Below, one piece after another: positions 2 through 15,287 of a stretch of DNA of 64,000 bases. Position numbers and translations under genes: made by a program. The DNA is taken from positions 3,291,501 through 3,355,500 of the forward strand of contig NZ_CP132311.1 in the NCBI RefSeq assembly GCF_030733845.1, read 5' to 3'. Origin of the DNA: Shinella zoogloeoides. GTDB lineage: Bacteria > Pseudomonadota > Alphaproteobacteria > Rhizobiales > Rhizobiaceae. The notes below the pieces were generated by a model that saw nothing but the letters and a program-made list of their open reading frames with translations, was not told the DNA's origin and did no database searches. Positions within the stretch are counted from its first letter, which is position 1. Each line of letters starts with the position of its first letter.

Positions 2-277
2 GTCGATCTGCCGCGCTGGACAAGCCGCGAAGAGGCGCATGGACTGATCCGCGAGGCGGGGTCGCTCGCTGCGTTGTGGGCCGACGCTCTTTTCGCCTTT
101 GGCCTGGATGAGGCCGGCGTGCCCGACGCGGGCGATGTCGGCATCATCGATACCGGCCGCTTCGGTCAGGTCGGCGGCATCTTTCTTTCCGGGGGGTACT
201 TCGCCTGGCGGGCGGAGCCGCGCGGTATTCTCATTCTTCTGCCCCGCAGCATTGTCAGGGTCTGGTCCATCCGATGA
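2..277 (+). CDS. Partial phage tail-assembly protein, DUF6950/NlpC-like (C-terminal part)
   Basis: The reading frame is open from the window edge to a TGA at 275-277, so only the C-terminal ~91 residues are visible. The piece contains a GDVGIID segment followed by hydrophobic beta-like stretches and ends VRVWSI. This pattern recalls the small DUF6950 or NlpC/P60-related proteins that sit just before the tail-tip gene in alphaproteobacterial phages. The stop overlaps the next start as ATGA, so the two are probably translationally coupled. No catalytic cysteine is visible in this fragment. The family call is inferred from position and the short motif; the existence of a gene is much surer than its name. 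Confidence 0.55.
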   Translation, partial: VDLPRWTSREEAHGLIREAGSLAALWADALFAFGLDEAGVPDAGDVGIIDTGRFGQVGGIFLSGGYFAWRAEPRGILILLPRSIVRVWSIR

Positions 278-2445
278 AATCCGTTCGCCTGCTGTTTGCC
301 TGCGGCGCTTCCTACGTCGCCATGACCGCGCATGCGCATGCGGACCCGGTTTCGCTGCTCGCGACGGCGATCCACGGTTTCCTGCTTTCGAGCACTGCGG
401 TTGCCGCCGCGGCGACGGGAACGATCGCGACGATCGCCGCCAATGTCATCGTCGGCGGCGCGCTAATTGGCATTTCGATCGTCGGCGGGCGACAGCAGCG
501 CTCCGGCGCCGTGAACGCGGCGGATGCGAAGAGCACATTCGAGACCAGCGAGAGCAGCGTCATCGAAGGGCTCGGCCGCGTTCGCGTCGGCGGGATGAAG
601 GCTTTCGGCAATACGGATGGCTCGACACGCTGGCGTCTTGTCTGTCGGCTTCAGGGTCCGATCGACGCCGTGGAGAACTATTATGTCGGCGGGCGCGAGG
701 TCACCATCGACTCCGACGGAAGCGTGACGACACCGCCCTGGGCGCGGCCGGGCGGCGCCTGGATGAAGATCGAGGATAAGAAGGGCGACGGAGCCGAGAC
801 GGCCTGGGGCGTGCTTGTCTCCGCCTTCCCGTCGCTCTGGACCGCCGACCATCAAGTGCGCGGCATCGCGCAGTCGCTGGTGACCTATTACAATCCGGGC
901 CTCAGCGAAGAAAAGTACCTGGCGCTCTATCAGAACGGTGTGCCGGATACCGAAGAGGTGCAGCGCGCCTCCCTGATCTACGATCCACGCACGGGCCTGA
1001 CGGCCTGGAGTGACAACGGCATCATCTGCGCCGCGCACGTCCTACGGCGCGACCCGGCTTTTGTCGCTGATCGGTTCGACTGGAGCCTCATCTCCCAGGA
1101 GGCAGACCGGGCCGACGGGCTTGTCGCCACGAAGACCGGGACGGAAAAGCGGGCGCGATGCTCCGGAATGTGGGCATGGGAAGGTGCGCGCAAGGATACC
1201 ATGGAAGATATTCTGCGCTCGATCGGCGCGGAAATCCGCATGACGACCGAGGGCAGGATATGGTTCGAGCTGATCGACGACGATCCCCTGGCCGAAATCG
1301 CCTTCACACCGCGCGACTTCATCGATTTCGACTGGGCATGCGGGCCGGAGGCGGTAGAGCGGCCGAACATCTGCCGCGTCAGCTACTATGCACCCGAGCG
1401 CAATTACGAGATGGCCGACCTGGACATGACCGGTATTGCATGGGCGCGCGTCGATGACGAGGTCACGCAATACGGGCCGAAGATATTCGACGTCGTGCTG
1501 CCCTTCCAGCCTTCGGCAGCGATCGCGCAGCGCATCGCGCGCCGGCTCTTCCGGCTGGCGCGCGCGGAAAGCGGCATCGCGGTTACGAACATGGCCGGGC
1601 TTGCCGCCTGGGGCAAATATTACGGCACGATGGAACTGCCCGATCTCGGCGACGTAGAGAAGGTCCGCATGCTCTCTCCTCGCGTGGACGACGGGCGCGG
1701 CTCGGTGGAGATACCCTTCTCGGTCTGGCCAGACCTGCCGGCGTGGAACCCGGAAACGGACGAGGCGGATGCGCCTGACCCAATCCCGGAAATGGCCTAT
1801 GAAAGCACGCTTCCGACGCCGGACGCGCCGACGGCGATGGTGCAGATCACCTATCCCGTTTCCGGGGCCAAGGAATTCCGCATTGCTTATGCGCTCCCTG
1901 GCGTTTCCTTCGACACGGCGGAGGCCACATGTCGGGTCTATACGGGTGGTCTGCCGGGGCCCTGGCTACCGATGGCGGAGCAGCCGACCTTTGCCCATAT
2001 CACGGCCGACTTCCTTGGGCAGACCGTGGATGCGCGCGTGCGCATTTTCGCGGGCGACGAAGGCAGTTATTTCTCGCCGGTGTTCAGCCAGACCGGCGTT
2101 GTAGACGACACACCCTGCGGCCTGCCCACCCACATCTCCGGTGATGCAGAGAGCAGCACGACCGGCAACGGAACAATCAACGTGACCGTCGAGGCCAGCG
2201 AGCTTCGCTGTGCCTCCATTCGATTGTCTCGCCGATGGGGCCCGGAAGGCGGCTCGTTCGGCTCCTGGTCGATTATCGACGAGAAAGACCTGCGACCAGG
2301 CGAGGATGCCACCTTTTCCGACACGTACACGAACATGACGGCCGCCGTGCACATCGTGGAATGGAAGCTGACGACAATGACGAGCGGCGGCATCGAGGGG
2401 GCTCCTCTGGTCTACTCAATCGAAGTGTCAAACCCCACCCCGTGA
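274..2445 (+). CDS. Phage tail-tip / host-specificity protein (J-like)
   Basis: A 723-residue protein, probably the central tail-tip attachment protein that contacts the receptor. The N-terminus is hydrophobic (residues ~1-70, Ala/Gly/Ile rich, two membrane-like stretches), as in the first segment of many phage tail-tip proteins. A long middle with segments such as GGREVTID and IYDPRTGL is typical of phage tail protein J relatives, and the C-terminal third (~500-720) looks like fibronectin-type beta domains. It starts at an ATG that overlaps the previous stop and is followed 73 bp later by the tail-fibre gene. It is shorter than lambda J (over 1,100 residues). The tail role is inferred from context and general pattern, not from a diagnostic motif. 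Confidence 0.75.
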   Translation: MKSVRLLFACGASYVAMTAHAHADPVSLLATAIHGFLLSSTAVAAAATGTIATIAANVIVGGALIGISIVGGRQQRSGAVNAADAKSTFETSESSVIEGLGRVRVGGMKAFGNTDGSTRWRLVCRLQGPIDAVENYYVGGREVTIDSDGSVTTPPWARPGGAWMKIEDKKGDGAETAWGVLVSAFPSLWTADHQVRGIAQSLVTYYNPGLSEEKYLALYQNGVPDTEEVQRASLIYDPRTGLTAWSDNGIICAAHVLRRDPAFVADRFDWSLISQEADRADGLVATKTGTEKRARCSGMWAWEGARKDTMEDILRSIGAEIRMTTEGRIWFELIDDDPLAEIAFTPRDFIDFDWACGPEAVERPNICRVSYYAPERNYEMADLDMTGIAWARVDDEVTQYGPKIFDVVLPFQPSAAIAQRIARRLFRLARAESGIAVTNMAGLAAWGKYYGTMELPDLGDVEKVRMLSPRVDDGRGSVEIPFSVWPDLPAWNPETDEADAPDPIPEMAYESTLPTPDAPTAMVQITYPVSGAKEFRIAYALPGVSFDTAEATCRVYTGGLPGPWLPMAEQPTFAHITADFLGQTVDARVRIFAGDEGSYFSPVFSQTGVVDDTPCGLPTHISGDAESSTTGNGTINVTVEASELRCASIRLSRRWGPEGGSFGSWSIIDEKDLRPGEDATFSDTYTNMTAAVHIVEWKLTTMTSGGIEGAPLVYSIEVSNPTP

Positions 2446-2518
2446 CACTCTCCGTCCGGCCTCGCAATCCCGAAGTGACTGCGCAGCGGCGCGCTCATGA
2501 TGATCCCAGGAGAATTTG

Positions 2519-4282
2519 ATGCCTGTGTATACGAAGACGGCAAACGATGTGTTTGCGCCTTATGACGGCGGAGGTGATGCCCGCTCCCCGACTCCCCAAG
2601 ATGCGCAAACTTGGGGAACTGAGGTTGAACGACTTGTAGCGTCGCTGACGATGTCCCTTGGAGCCGCCGTAATCAAGGGTTCGCTTGCCGAACTGGCGGC
2701 AGTAGCTGCGGACTACGAAGACGGCGACATCGGTTTGGTTGTCGTGGATGCGACAGTCATGAACCGCGGCATCTACAAGCTGTCGTCGGGCGCTTGGGCA
2801 AAGCAGGCGGAACTGCCTGCGGATGTCGCTGAGGCCGCGGCGGATGATGCATTGGAAGCCCGTGATGCTGCTGAAACCGCCAAGGCTGATGCAGAAACCG
2901 CCCGAGACATTGCGGCCGGTTATGCCTCCGACGCCGTGAGCCAGGGAAACGTTCCGATCTATGGGACGATCGCAGGCATGGCGGCCATTGAGGTTCCCGC
3001 AGGCATCAACGCAATCCTGGTGAATGGCCGAGCTGCGGCGGGCGATGGCCTCGGCGGTCGCTACACTGACAGTGATAACGGGAGCGTCGACACCTTCGCC
3101 TCCGGCGGCGCTACTACGCGAACGTGGTATCGCGACAACGGCACAGGCCGCGATATCGCCGTGACACTCACCGTTGGGGCCGGCGGCGATTTCGCGACCA
3201 TCAATGAAGCGGTTGTCGCGGCGTCTTTGATGGGGCCCCCACGCTACGTGCTTGCCGGGATTGTCGGGTCTACCAGCTCACAGCCATTGATCGTGATAAA
3301 GCTCCTGTCCGGCTTCGTGATGGCGGAACAGGTCTTGGTTCGCGGCCTCAACCTGTCATTCATTCGCATCGAGGCGGAAGACGCCGAGACCACCATTCAG
3401 CGTTCGGCCCTCACTCAACGGATCGATACGCAACCTCGTATTCCTGCTTTCGGCGTCACCGACGGTGGCTTCCTTCCGATCATTGCGGCGTTGTTCAGCA
3501 TGGACACGAGCGGCACGGCAACGGGACGCGATGGCGTCTACGCAAGCATCGGCTCGCGCGCGATAATTGAGGAAAACCCTAGTGCACCATATGGGGTGAA
3601 GAATGCCGGCGGTGACGGCTGCTCCGCTCAGCGCAACAGCCATATCGTCGCCCACCAGACAAATTTCTCTGGCGCGGGCGAAAATGGCATACATGCCGGC
3701 CGCACGTCGACTATTGACGCATCGCTTTCCGACGTAAGCGGTGCGGCCATCGCAGGCCTGTATGCTTGGCGGTCATCGAAAATCAACGCGTATTCCACGA
3801 CCGACTGCTCTGACTGTGGCTCATATGGGATCTACGCCACGAATGGCGGCGATATAGATGCGCTCCAGCCGGATTGTTCAGGCGCTGGAATCCATGGAAT
3901 CTATGCACTCAACGGCGCGACGATCAACGCTAGCCAAGCAAACTGCGACAATGCCGGGACGGATGGCGTTCGCGCGCACGGCGGGTCGCGGGTCAACGTT
4001 GCTGGCGGGCACGCGAATGGATGCGGGCAGAAGGGGCTCCATGCCCTTTATACCTCCGACATCTCAGCACAGAGCTTCAACGCCAGCGGCAATATCGGAA
4101 ACGGTATCTATGCCCTTTCTGCCACGATCAACATCAACGGCGGCAATGCTCAAATGGGCGGTAGTCCGGCCGCGACGGACATCGTCGTCCAGCAAGGCGG
4201 GATTATCCGTGCATCGACAGCTACGGGCGGCACGAACGTCACGAAAAACATTATGGCCAGCCAAGGCGTCATCTTCGGCTAA
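2519..4282 (+). CDS. Tail fibre / right-handed beta-helix receptor-binding protein
   Basis: A 587-residue protein. ATG 2519 is chosen because AGGAG at 2508-2512 lies six bases upstream. Residues ~1-170 carry an Ala-rich, coiled-coil-like stretch typical of a tail-attachment region. The segment around VTLTVGAGGDFATINEAV resembles the start of pectate-lyase-like beta-helix domains. From ~390 to 530 there are six consecutive coils of 23-24 residues built on GIYAxxGxxIxA with Gly and periodic Cys, followed by a short cap. The fold suggests polysaccharide binding or depolymerisation. Catalytic residues cannot be assigned by eye. It lies directly after the tail-tip gene and before a small gene that could be its chaperone. 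Confidence 0.8.
   Translation: MPVYTKTANDVFAPYDGGGDARSPTPQDAQTWGTEVERLVASLTMSLGAAVIKGSLAELAAVAADYEDGDIGLVVVDATVMNRGIYKLSSGAWAKQAELPADVAEAAADDALEARDAAETAKADAETARDIAAGYASDAVSQGNVPIYGTIAGMAAIEVPAGINAILVNGRAAAGDGLGGRYTDSDNGSVDTFASGGATTRTWYRDNGTGRDIAVTLTVGAGGDFATINEAVVAASLMGPPRYVLAGIVGSTSSQPLIVIKLLSGFVMAEQVLVRGLNLSFIRIEAEDAETTIQRSALTQRIDTQPRIPAFGVTDGGFLPIIAALFSMDTSGTATGRDGVYASIGSRAIIEENPSAPYGVKNAGGDGCSAQRNSHIVAHQTNFSGAGENGIHAGRTSTIDASLSDVSGAAIAGLYAWRSSKINAYSTTDCSDCGSYGIYATNGGDIDALQPDCSGAGIHGIYALNGATINASQANCDNAGTDGVRAHGGSRVNVAGGHANGCGQKGLHALYTSDISAQSFNASGNIGNGIYALSATININGGNAQMGGSPAATDIVVQQGGIIRASTATGGTNVTKNIMASQGVIFG
3686..4102 (+). repeat. Tandem 23-residue beta-helix coil repeat inside the tail fibre gene
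   Basis: Six successive protein repeats of 23, 24, 23, 23, 23 and 23 residues, each opening with G[ILV]xA, then a polar turn, then I-x-A, and several with a single Cys about 17 residues in. A shorter seventh copy starts at 4103. At DNA level the copies have diverged, so this is an old structural repeat rather than a recent duplication. Confidence 0.85.
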
Positions 4283-4293
4283 AGGAGACTGGA

Positions 4294-4617
4294 ATGCTCA
4301 CAGCCCTTCAATCAGGCGCTCAATATCCAAGCATTTCCGACGACATTCTCGCGCACCATAAGGGCGAGACCTTCGCCTGGATCGCAGCGACCGCAGTATT
4401 CGGGGAGGAAGGGCCCACACTTCCGGTCGAGGCTACACAGGAGCAGATCGCGGATGGTTACCGACGCATACGGCAGTATCTTTTCACGTCGAAGACTGAT
4501 CCGATGTTCTTCAAGGTCCAGCGCGGCGAGATTGAGATGTCGGAATATCTCGATGCGGTGGATAGCATCAAGAACGAATGGGCGTGGCGCGGCGATGGGA
4601 CGCCTAGAGACCCCTAG
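4294..4617 (+). CDS. Small phage protein following the tail fibre; possible fibre-assembly factor
   Basis: A 107-residue acidic protein with no recognised family. AAAGGAG at 4281-4287 precedes ATG 4294 by six bases, and the gene starts only 11 bp after the fibre stop, so it is almost certainly co-translated with it. Residues ~45-105 are helical and Trp/Tyr-containing (EQIADGYRRIRQYL, EWAWRGDG). Small genes at this position in tailed phages often encode fibre chaperones; here that is only a positional inference. Its last 14 bases overlap the convergent gene on the other strand. Confidence 0.7.
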   Translation: MLTALQSGAQYPSISDDILAHHKGETFAWIAATAVFGEEGPTLPVEATQEQIADGYRRIRQYLFTSKTDPMFFKVQRGEIEMSEYLDAVDSIKNEWAWRGDGTPRDP

Positions 4618-4870
4618 GTTCCGGGCCCGCGCCATGATAGCCGGCCGCAAGCGTCTCCCACCGGTCCATCGTGGCATCAAGCAATTGGTCGGCTCCCTCT
4701 AGGGGGCTTAGGTATCTCGGCGCGTTCGTTGCCATGTCGGAGCACAGTTTTGCGGCTTCGGACTTCGAGAGAGAGCCGGCCTTGACGAGGGTGCTGATCA
4801 GAAGCTCACGGAAGAGACTTCCGTGGGTCATCTCGTAGATGATCATGCTTTCGGTTGAGACTTTCGCCAC
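4604..4870 (-). CDS. Hypothetical small phage protein
   Basis: An 88-residue protein of unknown function. The start is a GTG at 4870, supported by AGGAG six bases upstream on the minus strand. The protein is helical, without membrane segments or a recognisable motif; it contains SKSEAAKLCSDMA and ends GAGPEPRGL. It lies downstream of the XRE-type regulator gene on the same strand (75 bp gap), so the two may form a short leftward transcript. It converges on and overlaps the post-fibre gene by 14 bases. Confidence 0.6.
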   Translation of the reverse strand: MAKVSTESMIIYEMTHGSLFRELLISTLVKAGSLSKSEAAKLCSDMATNAPRYLSPLEGADQLLDATMDRWETLAAGYHGAGPEPRGL

Positions 4871-4945
4871 CGCGAACTCCTAACTTTATGTCTGCGTATT
4901 CGGTCTTGTCCCGCGGTAGTTACCTAATAGGCTAGAGGTCTGCCC

Positions 4946-5374
4946 TCAATGGTTGGCGGAAGCGTCAGGTGTGTCGTTCCGTGTTTCTATCCGAGAAATG
5001 TAGTAGCTGCCATCTTCGCCCTTCACGATTGAGAGTTGAACGGCAATGCTGTCTTTGTCGAAGAGTTGCACTTTATGTTCGACAAGCTGCTGCAGCTGTG
5101 AGAGCGGTGCCAAGCCACGAGTATCTGCGTTTCCAGACGTTTTCGACCGCCTGTAGCCTTTGCCATCTCGTTCCACGATCTCGTCGTGAGACATGCCAAT
5201 CATATCGGCAATCGCTGCGATCCGGACATCCGTCAGCCAAAGATCGCCCTGGTTTATGTACCGGTTCACGAGAGAGGCGTCTACGCCCCAGCGGGTGGCC
5301 AAGTCGGCTTGGGTGTAGCCATTGTTTCTCAGGGCGCTATGGAGCCAGGCATTTTTTTTGGTGCGATCAGTCAT
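4946..5374 (-). CDS. XRE-type helix-turn-helix transcriptional regulator (phage)
   Basis: A 142-residue protein with an N-terminal HTH at ~residues 12-60: YTQADLATRWGVDASLVNRYI is a classical Cro/C1-like unit, followed by IAAIADMIGMSHDEIVE. The C-terminal ~70 residues have no known domain; no RecA-cleavage peptidase motif is seen, so it is not an obvious LexA/CI-like self-cleaving repressor. It is divergent from the cytidylyltransferase gene, and the 148-bp gap holds a long imperfect palindrome, so it may control the cargo genes, itself, or both. Its place among late tail genes rather than an early module makes a cargo-specific regulator plausible. Confidence 0.8.
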   Translation of the reverse strand: MTDRTKKNAWLHSALRNNGYTQADLATRWGVDASLVNRYINQGDLWLTDVRIAAIADMIGMSHDEIVERDGKGYRRSKTSGNADTRGLAPLSQLQQLVEHKVQLFDKDSIAVQLSIVKGEDGSYYISRIETRNDTPDASANH

Positions 5375-5394
5375 GGCGGACGCCTAGGGATAGG

Positions 5395-5425
5395 CCCTGC
5401 CAGCAGCGATAGCTGCATGGCAGGG
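5395..5425. promoter_or_regulatory. Long imperfect palindrome in the divergent regulator/cargo intergenic region
   Basis: CCCTGCCA and TGGCAGGG enclose an inner GCAGC/GCTGC pair around a GATA loop; the only break is one bulged A at 5417. The element starts 21 bp upstream of the XRE-regulator ATG and about 100 bp before the cytidylyltransferase ATG. It could be an operator or an RNA hairpin in the regulator leader. The symmetry is seen directly; the role is inferred. Confidence 0.6.
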
Positions 5426-5479
5426 ACTCCGCAACGTACTAGCGCTTCGACGCTTTAGAACCTTGCAGAGTTTTACGGT

Positions 5480-5506
5480 TTGTGACAGGTACATGACATT
5501 TAGATA
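5480..5506 (+). promoter_or_regulatory. Weak candidate promoter for the surface-modification cargo
   Basis: TTGTGA at 5480-5485 and TAGATA at 5501-5506 are separated by 15 bases (16 if the first box is read one base earlier). They lie in an AT-rich stretch 17 bp before the cytidylyltransferase start, with AAAGAGG at 5506-5512 as a likely ribosome site. The spacing is shorter than ideal, so this is a tentative call. Confidence 0.3.
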
Positions 5507-5522
5507 AAGAGGTAGCAAGGAT

Positions 5523-5933
5523 ATGAAGCGGTTGGCCACGACGGTGATCACATTTGGGACCTATGATCTGTTTCATATAGGACATCTAAATCTGATCAAC
5601 CGTGCGGCCGCTCTCGGTAGCAGGCTGGTTGTGGGAGTATCAACTGACGACCTCAATTTCAGCAAAAAGGGTAAACGCCCGTTTGTGTCGGAGCAGAATC
5701 GGATCGAGATCATCCGAAACCTCAAGGCTGTCGATGCTGCATTTTACGAAGAAAGCTTGGAACTCAAGGGCGAGTATATAAAAGAGCATAGCGCTGACGT
5801 ACTGGTCATGGGGGACGATTGGAGTGGCCGGTTCGATCACTTCAAGAGCCTGTGCGAAGTCATCTATCTTCCGCGCACCGACGGCATTTCCTCCACCTGG
5901 ATAAAGGCCGAATTGGCTCTGGGCCGCACGTAG
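5523..5933 (+). CDS. Glycerol-3-phosphate cytidylyltransferase-like protein (TagD family)
   Basis: A 136-residue nucleotidyltransferase, the usual size for TagD-type enzymes. The nucleotide-binding motif HIGH is at ~residues 20-23 in the context FGTYDLFHIGHLNLI, and the family signature RTDGISST is near the C-terminus. Known relatives join CTP to glycerol-3-phosphate (or a related phospho-alcohol) to make CDP-glycerol for cell-surface polymers; the true substrate here is unknown. It is followed 9 bp later by a LicD-family transferase, which fits a donor-synthesis plus transfer pair. GC content is clearly lower than in the chromosomal genes. The gene sits inside a prophage, so it is probably cargo altering the host surface. 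Confidence 0.88.
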   Translation: MKRLATTVITFGTYDLFHIGHLNLINRAAALGSRLVVGVSTDDLNFSKKGKRPFVSEQNRIEIIRNLKAVDAAFYEESLELKGEYIKEHSADVLVMGDDWSGRFDHFKSLCEVIYLPRTDGISSTWIKAELALGRT

Positions 5934-5942
5934 TCGTAAATT

Positions 5943-7457
5943 ATGGAGTACCTCGTGACATCAGACGATCTTTGCGACCTTTTGCCCGGACTGGTTCATT
6001 TTGGAACGTATCCGTTCGTCGTCCCTGTTTTTGCGGAAGTGACGCGAGTGACAATCACCGCGAAGGGCCACACATTCCTTAACCTATCTGGGGTCCGATG
6101 GGTTGTGGACGGAATCCAGCATGATTTTCCGGGATCGGCCGAAGCGTCCTCCAAGCATATAAAGAGCCTTCCAGCTGGCAGCCTTGTCAATTTTCGGGGC
6201 TACCACTCCGAACTGGAGACGAATCCAACGTGGACATTCGAGTTCGATCGACCCCAACGCCTCGATGAAATCCATGTCTTCAATAGGAGGGGCATCTACG
6301 CCGCGAGAAGCTACGATCTCGAAGTGATGGTCGAGACCGGAACGGGCGATCGTATAAGTACATCAAACATAGCACATCCAATCTTGGCAGCTCGCGCCGC
6401 AATTTTTGCAGACCGTGCCCGCAGGTTCTACGGTCTGTACCCTGACGATGCTGGGCGGAGGGTTGCAACAGCCGGGGCGGAACTCCAGCACATTTGCGAC
6501 AGGGCAATGATTGGAGGAGCTTGCGATAGCGCTCGATCCGTTCGGCTGAGGTCCGACATCCTTCAGTCTATCCATCACTGCCTCAAGAAGTCGCAGGATA
6601 TACTGGCGGTCAAGGCTCTACCTGTCGCTGCATCGCTGTGTGAGTTTCTCTTGGATCGCCGACCGAAAGATAAGAATTTCATTGCATCCGACGATGAGTT
6701 GTTTGCAGTGAGCGTGATTCTCGTGGATGCTATCGAAAATTTCCGCAAGGCTGATATGATCTATCTGTCAGACTTGGTGATGTACCTCGCTGGAAGAGGT
6801 ACGCCAGAAAGAGTCGAGCGAGAGGTCAACAAACTGTACGCAAGGGTGGGGAATGGAAATGTTCCTCAACCGATCATGTTCCGGTCTCATGCGATGGCAG
6901 GGGCGGACTTGCAAGCGAAGGCCGCTTCTCATCTAAACGCAATTGCGGAGGTGAACCGCGTCTTCGCAAGCATTGGGTACGTCACAGCCATCTGTTATGG
7001 GACTTATCTGGGGGCGATAAGAACCGGTGAGTTTATTCCTCACGATGACGATGTTGATATGGTGGTGGCTTTGGATGTTGTCGGAAGAGACAAGATCAAA
7101 CCTTCGCTAGACGCGATCGTTGCGGCGCTGACGTCTATGGGAGTTCGCGCATCGGTTTTTGGCGAGCACGAATTTCTGAAGGTGATAGCGCCTTCTGCCG
7201 GTCACGAGATCGACGTGTTTCCCATCGCTCATTCTGAGAAAGAGGGTTTCGTCCTCATGCACATGGAGCAGTTGACTATTCGCGAAGTGCGAAAGGATCA
7301 CATCCTTCCCTTCCGCATGATCGATTTCTATGGACGGGCAATGCTGGCACCGTCAACTGATAGCGACTTCCTGGCTGATCGGTATGGCCCCAACTGGATG
7401 GTTCCGATGAGGCCTGTCGCAGGGGAAATGCGGGAGGTGGTGGAGCTTCCCGATTAA
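5943..7457 (+). CDS. LicD-family phosphotransferase with N-terminal discoidin-like module
   Basis: A 504-residue two-part protein. The C-terminal part (~330-490) has the LicD/fukutin nucleotidyltransferase signature: YGTYLGAIRTGEFIPHDDDVDM, where the DDD acidic run binds metal, then EIDVFP. LicD relatives transfer phosphocholine, ribitol-phosphate or similar phospho-alcohols from CDP donors to glycans. Residues ~35-140 resemble an F5/8-type (discoidin) sugar-binding fold (WTFEFDRPQRLDEIHVFNRR). The middle (~150-320) is unrecognised. The start ATG is 9 bp after the cytidylyltransferase stop, with no good Shine-Dalgarno, suggesting coupling. A stem-loop follows the stop. Substrate and acceptor are inferred only from family and pairing. 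Confidence 0.85.
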   Translation: MEYLVTSDDLCDLLPGLVHFGTYPFVVPVFAEVTRVTITAKGHTFLNLSGVRWVVDGIQHDFPGSAEASSKHIKSLPAGSLVNFRGYHSELETNPTWTFEFDRPQRLDEIHVFNRRGIYAARSYDLEVMVETGTGDRISTSNIAHPILAARAAIFADRARRFYGLYPDDAGRRVATAGAELQHICDRAMIGGACDSARSVRLRSDILQSIHHCLKKSQDILAVKALPVAASLCEFLLDRRPKDKNFIASDDELFAVSVILVDAIENFRKADMIYLSDLVMYLAGRGTPERVEREVNKLYARVGNGNVPQPIMFRSHAMAGADLQAKAASHLNAIAEVNRVFASIGYVTAICYGTYLGAIRTGEFIPHDDDVDMVVALDVVGRDKIKPSLDAIVAALTSMGVRASVFGEHEFLKVIAPSAGHEIDVFPIAHSEKEGFVLMHMEQLTIREVRKDHILPFRMIDFYGRAMLAPSTDSDFLADRYGPNWMVPMRPVAGEMREVVELPD

Positions 7458-7465
7458 CGCGAACG

Positions 7466-7495
7466 TGGACCGGCAACCGCCGGTCCAAATTGTTC
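7466..7495. terminator. Bidirectional stem-loop between convergent LicD and methyltransferase genes
   Basis: A 9-bp perfect stem (TGGACCGGC / GCCGGTCCA) with an AACC loop, followed by AATTGTT on the plus strand, lies exactly in the 36-bp gap between two convergent stops. The T tract is modest, so it is a probable but not strong intrinsic terminator for either direction. Confidence 0.65.
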
Positions 7496-8141
7496 ACGCA
7501 GTTACTCTTACCGCTACCTGCATCCACTCTGTTCGCCAGAGATATTCAAAATGGCGCGACTTTTGTGCCGCCCAATCGTAAAGCGCTCGGTGTTCATCGT
7601 CCGAAGTCTCTCCGTCGGCAACCATCATGTACTCATCGAAGAGAAGGATCGTTCCCGGAACGATGAGGTCATCGAGGCCCATGAGGACATCCATAGCCGA
7701 GCTGTAAAGATCGCCGTCAATATGGAGGAACGAAAGAGGTTCTGTTTGAGTGGCGCGAAATGCTGGAACCGTTTGATTGAACCAGCCTTTATGAATCTGA
7801 ATACGGGGATCGCTGAAAGAGGGAATTTCACTCTCGTCCATCTTAAACGCACCCGCTCTCCATTGCCCGATCCAATCGGCTGGCAGCCCTTCGAAGCTGT
7901 CAAACAAATGGAGTTTTCTCTTCCCCGTCAGGAACGATGAAATAAACCGAGCGCAACGTCCCTTGTAGACACCAAACTCCGCCCAATCTCCAGGTAAGGA
8001 AATCGCGCCCATGGCGTGGAACAGTGATACTAGCTTATAGCTGTAGAACCGATCCGCATCATTTTGCAGCGCGGGCGCGTAGACCTTGCGCAAGCGGCTC
8101 ATTACGTCTTTGGCGGATTCGTGTTTCGTCGCTATGTTCAT
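7494..8141 (-). CDS. TylF/MycF-type SAM-dependent methyltransferase
   Basis: A 215-residue class I methyltransferase. WAEFGVYKGRCARFI (residues ~53-67) is the glycine/acidic SAM-binding motif of the TylF (macrocin O-methyltransferase) family. FDSFEGLPADW, HIDGDLYSSAMDVL and LLFDEYM are the other family hallmarks, including acidic residues that bind metal in known members. Family enzymes methylate sugar hydroxyls. In rhizobia related proteins often sit in surface-polysaccharide loci. Here it converges on the TagD/LicD pair inside the prophage and shares their lower GC. I infer O-methylation of a surface glycan. The start ATG has AGGA nine bases upstream. Confidence 0.85.
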   Translation of the reverse strand: MNIATKHESAKDVMSRLRKVYAPALQNDADRFYSYKLVSLFHAMGAISLPGDWAEFGVYKGRCARFISSFLTGKRKLHLFDSFEGLPADWIGQWRAGAFKMDESEIPSFSDPRIQIHKGWFNQTVPAFRATQTEPLSFLHIDGDLYSSAMDVLMGLDDLIVPGTILLFDEYMMVADGETSDDEHRALYDWAAQKSRHFEYLWRTEWMQVAVRVTA

Positions 8142-8277
8142 ATGCGCAGTTCCTGATTTTGGTGACGCCTATTCAGTAACCCTATAGTGAACCCTCAAAG
8201 GTGTGTCCACCAACTTCAACGCCGATCGGCGCGAACCAGCCACTACAAGCAATTGCATAGGAAAAGGGCGATTCTCC

Positions 8278-8382
8278 CTACGCAGGTGGAGGAAGGATTA
8301 TCCATAGCGCGACGATCGCCGCACCGATCAAATACCCGGCGATCTGCAGCCTGCTAGTTTGACGAGATTGATGGTTGCTCAT
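8278..8382 (-). CDS. Candidate 34-residue single-span membrane peptide
   Basis: A short ORF from ATG 8382 to TAG 8278. It has a polar, basic N-terminus (MSNHQSRQTSRL) and one hydrophobic span (IAGYLIGAAIVALWIIL) ending in PPPA. It starts 15 bp after the stop of the preceding minus-strand gene, so it fits a small leftward operon. The ribosome site is weak (GAGAA only). The clean charge/hydrophobic layout favours a real micropeptide, but length alone cannot prove it. Function unknown; a small holin-like or membrane-anchored modulator is possible. Confidence 0.4.
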   Translation of the reverse strand: MSNHQSRQTSRLQIAGYLIGAAIVALWIILPPPA

Positions 8383-8397
8383 TTCTCGCTGCCCAAC

Positions 8398-8613
8398 TCA
8401 AGAAGCTATTGTCAGTGACGACTTCCCCGACAGCTTGCGAAGTACCAGATCAGCCGGCTCCTGGACCTTAAGCGTCTTTCCCACGACTGAATGATGGGTC
8501 AATATTTCGGTGAAATTGTCGCGCTGCCGCACACTTACTACAAAGGCGGGATTCACATACACCCATTCGCCTTTTGGACCTACGAGTGTCAACTGACACA
8601 GTTCAACAGTCAT
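8398..8613 (-). CDS. Small protein with FlbD-like beta layout, function unknown
   Basis: A 71-residue protein. ATG 8613 is preferred over an upstream ATG at 8673 because GGAG lies seven bases before it on the minus strand and the upstream candidate has no ribosome site. The core reads LTLVGPKGEWVYVNPAFVVSV then TLKVQEPADLVLRKL. This layout (short beta strands, VNP, conserved VxE then V..L) is reminiscent of the small FlbD-type fold, but the match is too weak for a name. It follows the 8677-9051 gene and precedes the small membrane peptide on the same strand. Confidence 0.5.
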   Translation of the reverse strand: MTVELCQLTLVGPKGEWVYVNPAFVVSVRQRDNFTEILTHHSVVGKTLKVQEPADLVLRKLSGKSSLTIAS

Positions 8614-8676
8614 GCGTGTTCTCCAAACTTTGTTCCGAAGCTTGATAGGGAAATTCGCATCAACGCGTTGCATTAT

Positions 8677-9051
8677 TTAGCAACGGTGAAGGTTGGGCGG
8701 CGTTACATCTGCACCCTGATCCGCCACGTTTTCCGTAAGGTGGAGCTCGATATCGCCGGAAAAATATAACCCATCCTCCAGAGGAGATATCGTCAGAACA
8801 ATTCTAGGCTTGCCCGGTCCGATGCTCAATGGCGGCCGGAAAAACACTGTTCTGTCGGGATCTAGGGCGCCAGAGAATGTGATGCGTCCGGCAATTTTTA
8901 CTTCAATTTGCGTCCCGTAAAGACCGCTCTCCACCTCCTTAAGGATTGGAGTGGCGGCGTAGATGGAAACCGGCACGGGTATTCCGCGTGACACCTCGAT
9001 CACGAGCCGCCCGTTCTTGGAAACCGCTGAAAAGCTAATCTTGATATTCAA
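8677..9051 (-). CDS. Hypothetical beta-rich protein
   Basis: A 124-residue protein, mostly beta-strand in appearance, without membrane segment or cysteine cluster (apart from the terminal Cys). The start is TTG at 9051, supported by AAGAGG five bases upstream on the minus strand; no ATG in frame gives a comparable context. It contains PVPVSIYAATPILKEV and IVLTISPLEDGLYFSGDIEL, with no family I recognise. It heads a leftward group of three small genes between the methyltransferase and the endolysin and has the lower GC of the cargo region. Confidence 0.5.
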   Translation of the reverse strand: MNIKISFSAVSKNGRLVIEVSRGIPVPVSIYAATPILKEVESGLYGTQIEVKIAGRITFSGALDPDRTVFFRPPLSIGPGKPRIVLTISPLEDGLYFSGDIELHLTENVADQGADVTPPNLHRC

Positions 9052-9192
9052 GACATCCTCTTATGACGTGTTTGTCGCGTACCCGAAGTTCATTCCATCT
9101 TGGTTTATTAGACGCTTTCAGCACAGCCAATTGGAAATTGCAACTAGGCAAGAAACTTAACGTTAACCGTGAAGTTTCGCCGAGGGGCTATC

Positions 9193-9267
9193 ATGCGCGT
9201 CACGCTGTCCCATGTTCACCACCCGCCCATTGCCAATGGGGCGGCAACCCTGCCTGCCCAACCTTGA
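9193..9267 (+). CDS. Candidate 24-residue leader peptide before the endolysin
   Basis: A short ORF (MRVTLSHVHHPPIANGAATL...) with GAGGGG six bases before its ATG, ending 11 bp before the endolysin TTG start. The spacing would allow translational coupling. An imperfect inverted repeat (GCCCATTG / CAATGGGGC) lies inside it at about 9222-9243. It could be a regulatory leader or a chance ORF. Confidence 0.3.
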   Translation: MRVTLSHVHHPPIANGAATLPAQP

Positions 9268-9278
9268 AAGGACTATCA

Positions 9279-10265
9279 TTGATCACCGCAGCACATGTGC
9301 GCGCGGCCGCGAAGGCGCGCGTTAACGACAGCAACCTCAACTCCGTCATGACGGCGCTCGATCGCCACGGCGCGGCGGCCGGCCTCGATCTACCGCACCG
9401 CGCCGTGCACTTCCTCGCGCAGCTCATGCACGAGAGCGGATCTTTCCGCTTCGACCGGGAAATCTGGGGGCCGACGCCGGCGCAAAAGCGGTATGACACG
9501 CGCACCGATCTCGGCAATACGCCGGCGGTGGATGGCGATGGCTTCAAGAACCGGGGGCGCGGCCCGATCCAGGTGACGGGCGGCTATAACATCCGGGCAT
9601 TCCATGCCTGGTGCGTCGCCAAGGGGATGAACCCACCGGATTTTGTCAGCGACCCCGATCTCATCAACACCGATCCATGGGAGGGGCTCTCGGCGATCTG
9701 GTATTGGGATGAGGGCAATCCCGACCGTCGCAGTCTCAACCGCTATGCCGACCGGAACGATCCGGAAATGATCACCCGGCGCATTAATGGCGGATTGAAC
9801 GGCTATCCCGATCGCCTGGACTGCTACACCCGCCTGGGGGTGGTTGTGCTCGGTTATCGCCCCGATGATCTGCGCGGCTTCCAAGGGGCGGCGCGCGCGG
9901 CGGGCAAATATTCCGGCGCGCTCGACGGGCTGGACGGCCCGCAGACGCGGGCGGCGATCCACCTCATGCTCGTCGATCTGGCGCCGCAGAAGGTGCTGGC
10001 CACCAAGGCGGCTCCAGTGACCGAGGAGAAGCCGGTGGCCGTGACGCCGCAGAGCCTCGATGCGCCATGGTGGCAGTCGAAGGAAGTGCTGGGTCCCGCC
10101 GTCGGCGGTGGCGCGGCAACCACGCTGACGGCGCTCGGCTCGATCCCGTGGCAGAACCTGCTTCTCATCCTTGCCGCCTTCGGCGCCGTTGCTGGCTTCC
10201 TCTATTGGCGCAAGCGTCTCGATGCGCGTGACGTGCGCAGCCGCGCGGCCGAGGTGGAGGCATGA
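9279..10265 (+). CDS. Phage endolysin: GH19 lysozyme/chitinase with peptidoglycan-binding and C-terminal membrane segment
   Basis: A 328-residue protein. The TTG at 9279 is chosen because AAAGGA at 9267-9272 is six bases upstream; longer versions add a non-matching N-terminus. Residues ~1-190 form a GH19 domain: AQLMHESGSF carries the catalytic Glu, followed by KRYDTRTDLGNT, FKNRGRGPIQVTGGYN and WEGLSAIWYW. Residues ~195-240 (GFQGAARAAGKYSGALDG...GPQTRAAI) look like a peptidoglycan-binding domain. Near the C-terminus a hydrophobic span (NLLLILAAFGAVAGFLYW) is followed by basic residues. It degrades host peptidoglycan at lysis. Its stop overlaps the next start (ATGA), heading the lysis cassette. 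Confidence 0.88.
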   Translation: MITAAHVRAAAKARVNDSNLNSVMTALDRHGAAAGLDLPHRAVHFLAQLMHESGSFRFDREIWGPTPAQKRYDTRTDLGNTPAVDGDGFKNRGRGPIQVTGGYNIRAFHAWCVAKGMNPPDFVSDPDLINTDPWEGLSAIWYWDEGNPDRRSLNRYADRNDPEMITRRINGGLNGYPDRLDCYTRLGVVVLGYRPDDLRGFQGAARAAGKYSGALDGLDGPQTRAAIHLMLVDLAPQKVLATKAAPVTEEKPVAVTPQSLDAPWWQSKEVLGPAVGGGAATTLTALGSIPWQNLLLILAAFGAVAGFLYWRKRLDARDVRSRAAEVEA

Positions 10266-11996: not shown

Positions 11997-12839
11997 TTAT
12001 AAATCGGGATCGAATTGGTAGCGGCCAAGGGTGTCGGCAACGATCCTGCCGGCGTTTGGGTTGGCATGAACGTAGGTCCCGAGGAATACTTCGACGCTGC
12101 GCCAGTCGCCAGCCATCATCGTCGTACGGATGTCGATGCCAAGGCTTATGGCCGTCGTCGCAAAAGTGTGTCGTCCACATGCGTGGCTGGATTTGTAGCT
12201 TATGCCGGCACGCTCGCAGACCGCACGGATTCTTGCGTTGACGGCCTGTCTGCCGGAGTAGCCGAAAACCTTATCGTTCAGCCCGGCGTCGCCCCTTATC
12301 TCGGCGAGGCGGGCGGACACTTCCTTACTGAAATCCCGTCGCGAGTTTCTGCCGGTCTTCGTTTTTAGCAGCAATGCAGAACACCGTGCCAGGTCCACCT
12401 CATTCCAGCGTAGATTTATCGCCTCCGTCACCCGCGCGGCTGTTGTGGCCATAAAAAGCACCAGGGCTGCGAGATGCGGCAACCCGTCCTTCTGGCATTG
12501 CCTGACGAAGGCATGCAGCCATGTCTGTGACGCCGGACTCTTACGCTTCGGCGCCTCCTCTTTTAGGCGACGGATAGGACGTGACGGGCACCATCCCCGA
12601 TCGGCCGCATGGCGCAAAACTGCCTTGGCCGGAGAGATGGCCTGACGATTTCGCGTCGAGTTCTTTTGGCTTGGATAAAGACACGCCGCCATCTCATGCA
12701 CGTCAAAGGGGTAGATTTTGCCCAGAGGTCGCTTGCCGAAGTGCGAAATAATCAAGGGCAGGTAACGACCGTCGCCGCCATGCTGGATGAAGCTTTCCGC
12801 CGCGTCGGCGAACGTGCGCGAGTTCTTCGCTGCCATCAT
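11997..12839 (-). CDS. Prophage tyrosine integrase
   Basis: A 280-residue site-specific recombinase that integrates and excises the phage by a covalent tyrosine intermediate. The N-terminal ~100 residues are a SAM-like core-binding domain. Catalytic elements are R136 (TTAARVTEAINLRW), Lys near 159-161 (LLKTKTGR), H219...R223 (SSHACGRHTFAT), W246 (AGDW, replacing the usual GH) and nucleophile Y256 (LGTYVH). The HxxxRH spacing is one residue longer than the canonical HxLRH. AGGAG precedes tandem ATG codons at 12839/12836. Its place at the end of the phage genes and next to chromosomal genes marks the attachment side of the prophage. Confidence 0.92.
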   Translation of the reverse strand: MMAAKNSRTFADAAESFIQHGGDGRYLPLIISHFGKRPLGKIYPFDVHEMAACLYPSQKNSTRNRQAISPAKAVLRHAADRGWCPSRPIRRLKEEAPKRKSPASQTWLHAFVRQCQKDGLPHLAALVLFMATTAARVTEAINLRWNEVDLARCSALLLKTKTGRNSRRDFSKEVSARLAEIRGDAGLNDKVFGYSGRQAVNARIRAVCERAGISYKSSHACGRHTFATTAISLGIDIRTTMMAGDWRSVEVFLGTYVHANPNAGRIVADTLGRYQFDPDL

Positions 12840-13030
12840 TCTACTCCTGCCAGCAGCACACCGGCCGACCGTTGTGCGACACTCGAAAGGCGTTGGACAC
12901 TCTTCAAAATTCGTTTGTAAAAACAGCGGGACGTTTCTGGGTCCAGCTTTTTTGCAACTATCGGAAAACGCTCAATTTACGCTGCCCGGCATGGGGCACC
13001 AAAATCCAGACCGATCGCTATTGTTCGACA

Positions 13031-13643: not shown

Positions 13644-15287
13644 ATGCTCGCCGAGAGACCCACCTTTGACGCGCTGTACCGGGATTTCCGCTGGCAGATC
13701 CCGGATCGTTTCAACATCGGCACCGCCGTTTCCAACGCGTGGGCGGCACGCGAGCCCGATCGTATCTGTCTCCAGCATTTCCTCCCGGATGCCCCGCCGC
13801 TCTCGATGACCTATGGCGAGCTTGCCGCCCGGTCCGACGCCTTCGCAGCGGCGCTGGTCGCTGAAGGCGTCGCGAAAGGCGACCGCGTGGCGATCCTCTT
13901 GCCGCAGGGCTTCGAGACGGTGATCGCCCATCTCGCCATCTACAAGCTCGGCGCCATCGCCCTGCCGCTCGCGCTGCTCTTCGGTGCGGATGCCCTGCTC
14001 TTCCGGCTTCGGAATGCCGAGGCGAAGGCGATCGTCACCAACCGGTTCGGCGCGGAACGGCTGCAGCCGATCCGCGCGGATCTCCCCACGCTCGATCTCG
14101 TGATCACGACCGAGCCTGCCGCCGATCCCGCGGTAAGGTCCTTTCACGACCTGATTGCGCAGCATGCCGGGCCCTTCGAGGCCGCCGACAGCGGCCCGGA
14201 CGATCCGGCGATGATGATCTACACCTCCGGCACCACCGGGCCTCCGAAGGGCGCGCTGCATGGCCACCGGGTGCTGCTCGGCCACGTGCCGGGCTTCCAG
14301 ATGCACCATGAATTCCTGCCGCAGCCCGGCGACCGCATCTGGACACCCTCCGACTGGGCTTGGGCGGGCGGGCTGTTGAACGTGCTCCTGCCGGCGCTGC
14401 TGCTCGGCGTGCCGGTCGTCTCCTCGCCCGGCCAGAAGTTCGACCCCGACATGGCCTATCGCATCATGCAGGACATGGATGTGCGCAATGCCTTCATTCC
14501 GCCGACGGCGCTGCGCCTGATGAAGACGGTCGCCAACCCGCGGGACAAGTACCGGCTGAACCTGCGCACCATCGGCTCCGCCGGCGAATCGCTCGGCCGC
14601 GAGACCTGGGAATGGGTGAAGGACACGCTCGGCATCACCATCAATGAGTTCTACGGCCAGACCGAATGCAACATCGTGCTCGGCTCGATCGGCAAGCTCG
14701 GCGTGTCGCGGCCGGGGCCGATCGGCAAGGCGGTGCCGGGCCATGTGGTCGCCATAATCGACGCCAGGGGCAACGAAGTGTCGCGCGGCACGGTGGGGCA
14801 GGTGGCGGTGAAGCGCCCCGATCCCGTGATGTTCCTCGGCTATTGGAAGAACGAGAAGGCAACGGCGGAAAAGTTCATCGGCGACTGGATGATGACCGGC
14901 GATCTCGGCCGCATGGACGAGGAGGGCTACGTCACTTTCTTCGGCCGCGACGACGACGTGATCACCTCCTCGGGCTACCGCATCGGGCCGAGCGAGATCG
15001 AGGATTGCCTTGCCGGCCACCCCGCCGTGCAGCTTGCCGCCGCGGTGGGCAAGCCCGATCCGGTGCGCACGGAAATCGTCAAGGCCTATGTGATGCTGCG
15101 CCCCGGCCATGCACCGTCGGAGGCGCTGGCGATCGACATCCGCGAATGGGTGAAGTCGCGGCTCTCCATGCACGAATATCCGCGCGAGGTGGAGTTCGTC
15201 GACGCGCTGCCGCTGACGACCTCCGGCAAGGTCATCCGCCATCTGCTGCGCAAGCGCGCGGCGGAGGAAACGTCTTTTGCGGCTTAA
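13644..15287 (+). CDS. AMP-forming acyl-CoA synthetase (acetyl/medium-chain type)
   Basis: A 547-residue ANL-superfamily enzyme that activates a carboxylic acid with ATP, then CoA. Motifs: the P-loop YTSGTTGPPKGALHG (~193-207), YGQTE (~338), TGDLGRMDEEGY (~420) and the C-terminal catalytic lysine region LPLTTSGKVIRH (~525). The organisation resembles acetyl-/propionyl-CoA or medium-chain acyl-CoA synthetases; the substrate cannot be told by eye. GGAG lies nine bases before the ATG. Its stop overlaps the convergent acetyltransferase stop within TTAA. Confidence 0.88.
   Translation: MLAERPTFDALYRDFRWQIPDRFNIGTAVSNAWAAREPDRICLQHFLPDAPPLSMTYGELAARSDAFAAALVAEGVAKGDRVAILLPQGFETVIAHLAIYKLGAIALPLALLFGADALLFRLRNAEAKAIVTNRFGAERLQPIRADLPTLDLVITTEPAADPAVRSFHDLIAQHAGPFEAADSGPDDPAMMIYTSGTTGPPKGALHGHRVLLGHVPGFQMHHEFLPQPGDRIWTPSDWAWAGGLLNVLLPALLLGVPVVSSPGQKFDPDMAYRIMQDMDVRNAFIPPTALRLMKTVANPRDKYRLNLRTIGSAGESLGRETWEWVKDTLGITINEFYGQTECNIVLGSIGKLGVSRPGPIGKAVPGHVVAIIDARGNEVSRGTVGQVAVKRPDPVMFLGYWKNEKATAEKFIGDWMMTGDLGRMDEEGYVTFFGRDDDVITSSGYRIGPSEIEDCLAGHPAVQLAAAVGKPDPVRTEIVKAYVMLRPGHAPSEALAIDIREWVKSRLSMHEYPREVEFVDALPLTTSGKVIRHLLRKRAAEETSFAA

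Follow-up and report, generated by a model that had tools for sequence, protein, structure and literature searches.

A TagD-LicD gene pair and a TylF-type methyltransferase gene as probable surface-modifying cargo of a Shinella prophage

Why would a prophage carry genes for glycan-decorating enzymes between its tail and lysis genes? The question is raised by three genes in the window analyzed here, a stretch of 64,000 nucleotides from Shinella zoogloeoides (contig NZ_CP132311.1, positions 3,291,501 to 3,355,500). All three open reading frames (ORFs) are intact and open:

5523..5933, plus strand: TagD-like cytidylyltransferase, 136 amino acids (PF01467, TIGR01518, and matches to 1coz and 2b7l)
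5943..7457, plus strand: LicD/FKRP-type phosphotransferase, 504 amino acids, with a lectin-like (F5/8 type C-like) N-terminal part (PF04991, family profile)
7494..8141, minus strand: TylF-type O-methyltransferase, 215 amino acids (PF05711, 71.3 bits, 1e-19)

We consider it likely that these genes belong to an imported lysogenic-conversion cassette that adds glycerol-phosphate to the host surface. The gene families, the catalytic residues, the location in a prophage, the deviant composition, the exchangeable slot, and the recurrence of the TagD-LicD pair are supported by the analysis. For the substrate, the acceptor, the methyl target, and the effect on phages, we infer the following scheme. 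The TagD-like enzyme would turn host glycerol-3-phosphate and CTP into CDP-glycerol. From this donor, the LicD/FKRP-type enzyme, whose lectin-like N-terminal part may act as a guide, would move glycerol-phosphate onto a sugar in a surface polysaccharide of the host, be it O-antigen, capsule, or exopolysaccharide. O-methylation by the TylF-type enzyme would fall on a sugar or on the glycerol so attached. The surface of the lysogen would thus change, most likely altering the receptor used by the window phage or its kin. Masking of that receptor is a proposal that we rank below the surface glycerol-phosphate reading, with a chance slightly short of even.

The TagD-like protein matches CTP_transf_like (PF01467) in Pfam at 6.2e-23. 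Its top NCBIfam model is TIGR01518 (glycerol-3-phosphate cytidylyltransferase; 124.7 bits over model positions 1–125 of 125), and its top PDB matches, 1coz (1.6e-35) and 2b7l (4.7e-30), are both glycerol-3-phosphate cytidylyltransferases. The matches to ethanolamine-phosphate enzymes (5.6e-15) and choline-phosphate enzymes (1e-7) are far weaker. HIGH at residues 18–21 and RTDGISST at residues 118–125, located by alignment with 1coz, correspond to the HxGH and RTxGIS[ST]T motifs of TagD. The enzyme is predicted to produce CDP-glycerol from CTP and glycerol-3-phosphate.

The LicD-like protein exceeds the Pfam gathering score of PF04991 (32.6 versus 22.6 bits, 1.2e-07). A family profile built from four rows matches FKRP, the human ribitol-phosphate transferase (6kaj, 4.9e-6), in the C-terminal part, and fucolectin (3cqo, 2.1e-5) in the N-terminal part. 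Counted by hand in the profile alignment, D368, D370, D372, and D424 align with D360, D362, D364, and D416 of FKRP, and the columns of D370, D372, and D424 are invariant in all six rows of the family alignment. In published work on FKRP, D362, D364, and D416 are described as essential (PMC6965139). The three catalytic aspartates of the LicD/FKRP nucleotidyltransferase fold are thus present. The third protein also exceeds its gathering score (PF05711, 71.3 versus 23 bits). The tagD and licD genes form a plus-strand pair separated by 9 bases, whereas tylF lies on the minus strand and is convergent with the pair; the three genes are therefore a neighborhood and not one operon.

Cellular relatives place the same families in a glycerol-phosphate setting. 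In a 319-kb Chelatococcus contig, gpsA and genes for TagD (55% identical), a LicD-like protein (32%), GDPD, and a TylF-type methyltransferase (49% over 207 amino acids) lie within about 7 kb, and inspection by eye found no phage genes near them. In Litoreibacter, TagD adjoins a LicD-GDPD fusion, and the frames around them look like polysaccharide genes; gpsA is also found near TagD-LicD in locus L160. GpsA produces glycerol-3-phosphate and GDPDs cleave glycerophosphodiesters; the gpsA and GDPD neighbors therefore point to glycerol-phosphate. The stretch examined around a Hansschlegelia LicD-like protein contained neither TagD nor TylF. In the host genome, the only LicD match is the prophage gene itself, no TagF-type match was found, and the three other CTP_transf_like genes gave no match to the prophage TagD at 1e-3; the chemistry would therefore arrive with the phage.

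Three observations on the relatives may be recorded here. The Litoreibacter fusion (L010:7638-9926) joins LicD to a glycerophosphodiesterase domain and might combine addition and removal in one enzyme. In G398, another genome of the genus, a locus (L242:7565-14698) has two TagD frames, one of them beside a LicD-like match, and is a possible source of such cargo. Two genomes of the family carry distant LicD relatives (L243:421-2375 and L244:3349-5817), each near a methyltransferase-like frame; the frames look alike by eye.

The preliminary description of this DNA had placed the trio between the tail and lysis genes of a rhizobial prophage. This position was borne out by the features below, in which phi3LM21 is a Sinorhizobium prophage (MF614628) and the slot is the interval from tail fibre to endolysin:

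C2:3262182-3262197, outside the window: left attachment site (attL), the last 16 bases of tRNA-Leu(CAA) (repeat search)
274..2445, plus strand: J-like tail protein, slot landmark (phrog_5616, 4.7e-134; 68.7% identical to phi3LM21 p47)
2516..4282, plus strand: tail fibre, left slot border (phrog_38233, 3e-9)
4620..9060, no strand: low-GC cargo island within the slot (GC content 0.53)
9063..10265, plus strand: endolysin/chitinase, right slot border (phrog_14712, 2.9e-135; phrog_9506, 3.3e-47; 57% identical to phi3LM21 p51)
11997..12839, minus strand: phage integrase, 280 amino acids, near the right end (PF00589, 4.7e-16)
12986..13001, no strand: right attachment site (attR), a 16-bp copy of the 3' end of tRNA-Leu(CAA) (repeat search)

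The tRNA-Leu(CAA) gene lies about 29 kb to the left of the window (C2:3262113-3262197), a frame of 379 amino acids adjoins attL, and the prophage measures 42,320 bases from repeat to repeat. When the flanks were joined and compared with 20 other genomes of the genus, two of these (G075 and G315) gave one continuous gapped match (81%) across the joint and thus have an empty site. Of the 57 phi3LM21 proteins compared, 26 are matched in this region, with their order kept. Identity to phi3LM21 is 82–91% for the terminase, portal, protease, decoration, and capsid proteins and 55–87% for the remaining head and tail proteins, which fits the preliminary designation of the phage as rhizobial. Similarity of the tail fibre to that of phi3LM21 is confined to the first 100 or so residues (45% identity over 104 amino acids). 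A chromosomal, non-phage origin of the genes, with no link to phage ends, is ruled out by the attachment-site repeat, the empty site, and the phage gene order.

Within this delimited prophage, the island has a GC content of 0.53, compared to 0.611 across the prophage and 0.656 at window positions 14000–64000. None of the three proteins was found by tblastn in 62 related loci (defined below), and the slot of relatives holds other genes. When the DNA of positions 4600–8700 was compared with 20 other genomes of the genus, one of them gave a match, which is 131 bases long and lies within tagD. The LicD-like protein matched three of 394 genomes of the family, namely its own and two weak partial ones, and its profile matched three of 397 genomes of the order, its own included. 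A search for DNA repeats at the island edges gave nothing convincing. Together, the location, the composition, and the differing cargo of relatives indicate that the trio is probably imported cargo and not phage core. Two short uncharacterized frames (of 91 and 124 amino acids; window 8398-9051, minus strand) complete the island.

To see what relatives carry in the slot, J-type tail proteins were used as landmarks; they matched in 18 of the 394 family genomes (the window genome included) and at 77 loci in viral contigs. On the genome side, 18 stretches were taken, one match with an inner stop being omitted, and the slot ORFs were typed in nine. Four of these nine (L051, L053, L058, and L061) carry glycan-type genes above the cut-off: Stealth-type, UDP-GlcNAc 2-epimerase, FkbM, acyltransferase-3 with SGNH, and glycosyltransferase 25. 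The slot of L056 holds a class-I methyltransferase and that of L050 a Wzy_C match under the cut-off; nothing glycan-like was found in the typed slots of L047, L054, and L060.

On the viral side, 59 of the 77 loci were used together with L021–L023, giving 62 loci, of which 48 yielded slot ORFs and 21 yielded control ORFs past the endolysin. Left out were L085, L094, and L122 (same contigs as L021–L023), L135 (tail protein cut), and L139–L152 (distant or partial). ORFs of at least 170 amino acids were chosen mechanically, giving 104 slot and 45 control ORFs. The set contains the near-copies L086/L104 and, apparently, the same sequence twice in L048/L109, L052/L132, and L056/L131. A specific glycan enzyme was found in at least 16 of the 48 loci. 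The individually typed ORFs come from 14 of the 48: the slot of L021 holds a sulfotransferase, that of L023 a glycerophosphotransferase fused to a glycosyltransferase, that of L083 (15139-18139) a polysialyltransferase-type protein with an ABC-2 permease, and that of L089 an MBOAT protein, and L079, L081, L086, L095, and L130 also hold specific glycan enzymes. ORFs typed singly in L078, L107, and L116 had no family, and those in L076 and L080 were only class-I methyltransferases. Loci L082, L087, L097, L104, L106, L108, and L111 were counted by phmmer similarity to typed examples. The L083 gene pair would fit part of a capsule pathway carried by a phage.

A Pfam census of the 104 slot ORFs, which gives families and not which ORF matched, contained FkbM (6), acyltransferase-3 (5), glycosyltransferase-2 (3), capsule synthesis (2), polysialyltransferase (1), and glycerophosphotransferase (1) among the 25 of 64 families listed. 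Class-I methyltransferases, up to seven per model, were kept apart from the specific glycan families. The 45 control ORFs showed no glycan family among the 25 of 27 families listed, which included DNA ligase, SRAP, regulators, TIR, and RelA/SpoT. With phmmer, 14 slot ORFs and no control ORF matched the examples, which are mostly slot-derived and thus favor the slot. The comparison of 17 of 104 slot ORFs with none of 45 control ORFs gives a Fisher p of 0.0014, a rough guide that assumes 17 distinct ORFs and treats relatives as independent. Because the corresponding position in some relatives is taken by other sugar-changing genes, the slot beside the tail fibre looks like an exchange site for coat-changing genes. 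The preliminary description had proposed a prophage-borne pairing of a donor-maker with a transferase, modification of a surface glycan, and lysogenic conversion as the likely purpose. These points are supported, with added support from the other glycan enzymes in the slots of part of the relatives and from the Chelatococcus setting, which points to glycerol-phosphate. A different kind of cargo is the apparent DarT-type pair at L102:15332-17047, a locus assigned by eye, with a DarT match in the census.

Several results weigh against the surface glycerol-phosphate reading. The TagD-like protein falls under the curated TIGR01518 cut-off (124.7 versus 165.4 bits). The PF04991 match of the LicD-like protein spans residues 349–374 alone, that is, the catalytic motif, and its sole NCBIfam match is the cholinephosphotransferase model NF045866 (40.8 bits, cut-off 225). 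A promoter and terminator scan of the cassette found no more sites than in shuffled sequences. For 32 of the 48 slot loci, in which not all ORFs were typed singly, a specific glycan family could not be confirmed, and part of the slot cargo is unrelated to glycans (DarT, resolvase, and AMP-binding proteins). The last of these results would suit an explanation that shares the whole chemistry with ours and differs in purpose alone, namely that the surface is altered and the genes are kept for host fitness, or as neutral cargo, and not for phage exclusion. We think this unlikely, since several surface chemistries recur beside the tail fibre gene within one phage group, as is expected if receptor change matters.

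The NF045866 match bears on a second alternative, to which we give a small chance: the TagD-like enzyme would make CDP-choline or CDP-ethanolamine, and the LicD-like enzyme would add phosphocholine or phosphoethanolamine. The founding LicD members are phosphocholine transferases, as is generally known and as also stated in one source (PMC11982090), and a report on mf1 of the cholinephosphotransferase family describes limited substrate flexibility. Against it stand the much stronger matches of the TagD-like protein to glycerol-3-phosphate enzymes than to ethanolamine or choline enzymes, and the gpsA and GDPD neighbors in relatives. That the target is instead the sugars of the phage's own tail fibre or virion is very improbable: the slot adjoins the tail fibre, and the distal end of that protein is likewise unlike its phi3LM21 counterpart, but the membrane acyltransferases, polysialyltransferase-type enzyme, and ABC-2 permease of some related slots fit the change or export of polysaccharide, and the Chelatococcus homologs have, by eye, no phage neighbors.

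The search for TagD next to LicD in phage genomes that the preliminary description had proposed was run. Among 50,697 deposited phage records, a TagD-like match was present in 94 and a TylF-like match in 110, and none was found for the 504-residue LicD-like protein at 1e-5 by tblastn. A single-sequence scan of IMG/VR with the LicD-like protein also found none. These early negatives reflect a limit of sensitivity, because the family profile later found four LicD relatives in viral contigs, three of which were found again by a second profile. TagD directly adjoins LicD at all four of these loci. No TylF partner was found at these four loci (L153–L156) at 1e-2. The gene order in L154 is endolysin, LicD, TagD, and tail fibre, and in L155 an integrase and a terminase lie around the pair.

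Starting from TagD, the best 80 of 250 viral loci were examined, and 16 of them had a LicD-like frame in the flanks (12 by tblastn, four by motif only); L157 is a seventeenth, recognized by Pfam. Some of these loci are repeats: L168, L173, and L174 equal L154, L153, and L155, respectively, and L160 and L161 are near-copies. In L157, TagD (65% identical), LicD, a glycerophosphotransferase, and a pyruvyl transferase are followed by an M15 peptidase, and these genes come after frames that read by eye like tape-measure, J, and fibre proteins. L158 contains LicD (under the cut-off), TagD, and a GH19 endolysin. The idea that TagD plus LicD is unique to the window prophage is thus ruled out. The J type of the window had no match in any of five other TagD-LicD records, which may be fragments and were searched without a positive control; searches for kinship among six such contigs with terminase (no match) and phrog_2 (one match) were little informative. 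As judged from these comparisons, the other contigs are likely to be separate phage lineages. The combination had been called unusual in a rhizobial phage. This holds for the exact trio, absent from the 62 related loci and matched over no more than 131 bases of DNA in the 20 other genomes of the genus; it does not hold for TagD-like or TylF-like genes singly, each present in about a hundred deposited phages, or for the TagD-LicD pair, which recurs in viral contigs.

Surface change by prophages has long been known. In serotype-converting phages (epsilon15, D3, and the gtr/oac phages), prophage genes alter the surface sugars of the host by glucosylation, acetylation, or polymerase swaps. The window prophage differs in carrying predicted synthesis of a CDP-glycerol-type donor together with LicD transfer. 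The TagD-LicD cassette would be new chemistry for a known strategy. Its closest counterpart, phi3LM21, is alike in the 26 of 57 proteins in order and in the 55–91% identity of packaging, head, and tail proteins. It has other cargo in the same slot, an FkbM methyltransferase between tail fibre and chitinase, and its attachment site is tRNA-Pro, compared to tRNA-Leu here. In the 2017 LM21 paper, FkbM is listed among auxiliary metabolism genes, mitomycin C is reported to have induced only another LM21 phage, and a prophage glycosyltransferase is likened to epsilon15, which is named for surface-sugar change (PMC5537653). The cellular polyol-phosphate systems (Bacillus subtilis TagD and the capsule enzyme CpsC) have in common with the window genes the donor-maker family and a LicD-family polyol-phosphate transferase; they serve cellular polymer synthesis, whereas the window genes are prophage cargo and the transferase has a lectin-like part. 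CpsC is described as an enzyme that polymerizes polyol-phosphate during the synthesis of capsule (PMC11666461). FKRP shares the family and the catalytic aspartates with the LicD-like protein, although only about 146 profile positions align, and it is reported to use CDP-ribitol on a protein glycan, unlike the window system (PMC6965139). A literature search that scarcely covered subscription journals found no publication on a TagD-LicD cassette in a prophage; one paper treats licD as streptococcal choline genes, with no prophage link (PMC2828477).

If the surface glycerol-phosphate reading is true, glycerol-phosphate, a teichoic-acid-like group, joins the ways in which temperate phages re-coat hosts with O-antigen or capsule. 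The tail-fibre-to-endolysin slot of phi3LM21-like prophages would be a place to collect new surface-sugar enzymes by simple search. It would also allow tests, in many strains, of how a phage's binding protein is tied to the change that the phage imposes on the receptor. More tentatively, and with some doubt on our part, the CDP-glycerol/LicD module may have been domesticated by phages as a mobile receptor-masking device, with TagD-LicD placed near tail or lysis genes by more than one lineage. The slot beside the tail fibre of phi3LM21-like phages might then be a general exchange site at which variants in receptor binding are paired with chemistries that modify the receptor to match; in the window prophage this would be glycerol-phosphate, with O-methylation as a possible addition.

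Two further features of the island concern its expression:

4946..5374, minus strand: helix-turn-helix (HTH) regulator, transcribed divergently to tagD and a candidate for control of the island (HTH_3, PHROGs)
7467..7486, no strand: GC-rich hairpin in the gap where licD and tylF converge, candidate terminator (folding of 7458-7500)

The regulator matches HTH_3 at 1.6e-4, slightly below the cut-off, and phage-repressor PHROGs from 1.7e-5; its position makes a role as control gene of the island possible. The stretch 7458-7500 folds at -24.2 kcal/mol; the hairpin has no T-run and is missing from the terminator scan output. Outside the island, the small frame at window 10571-11077 matches the same genome near C2:1558388 (64% over 64 amino acids), which hints at a second prophage or a remnant of one.

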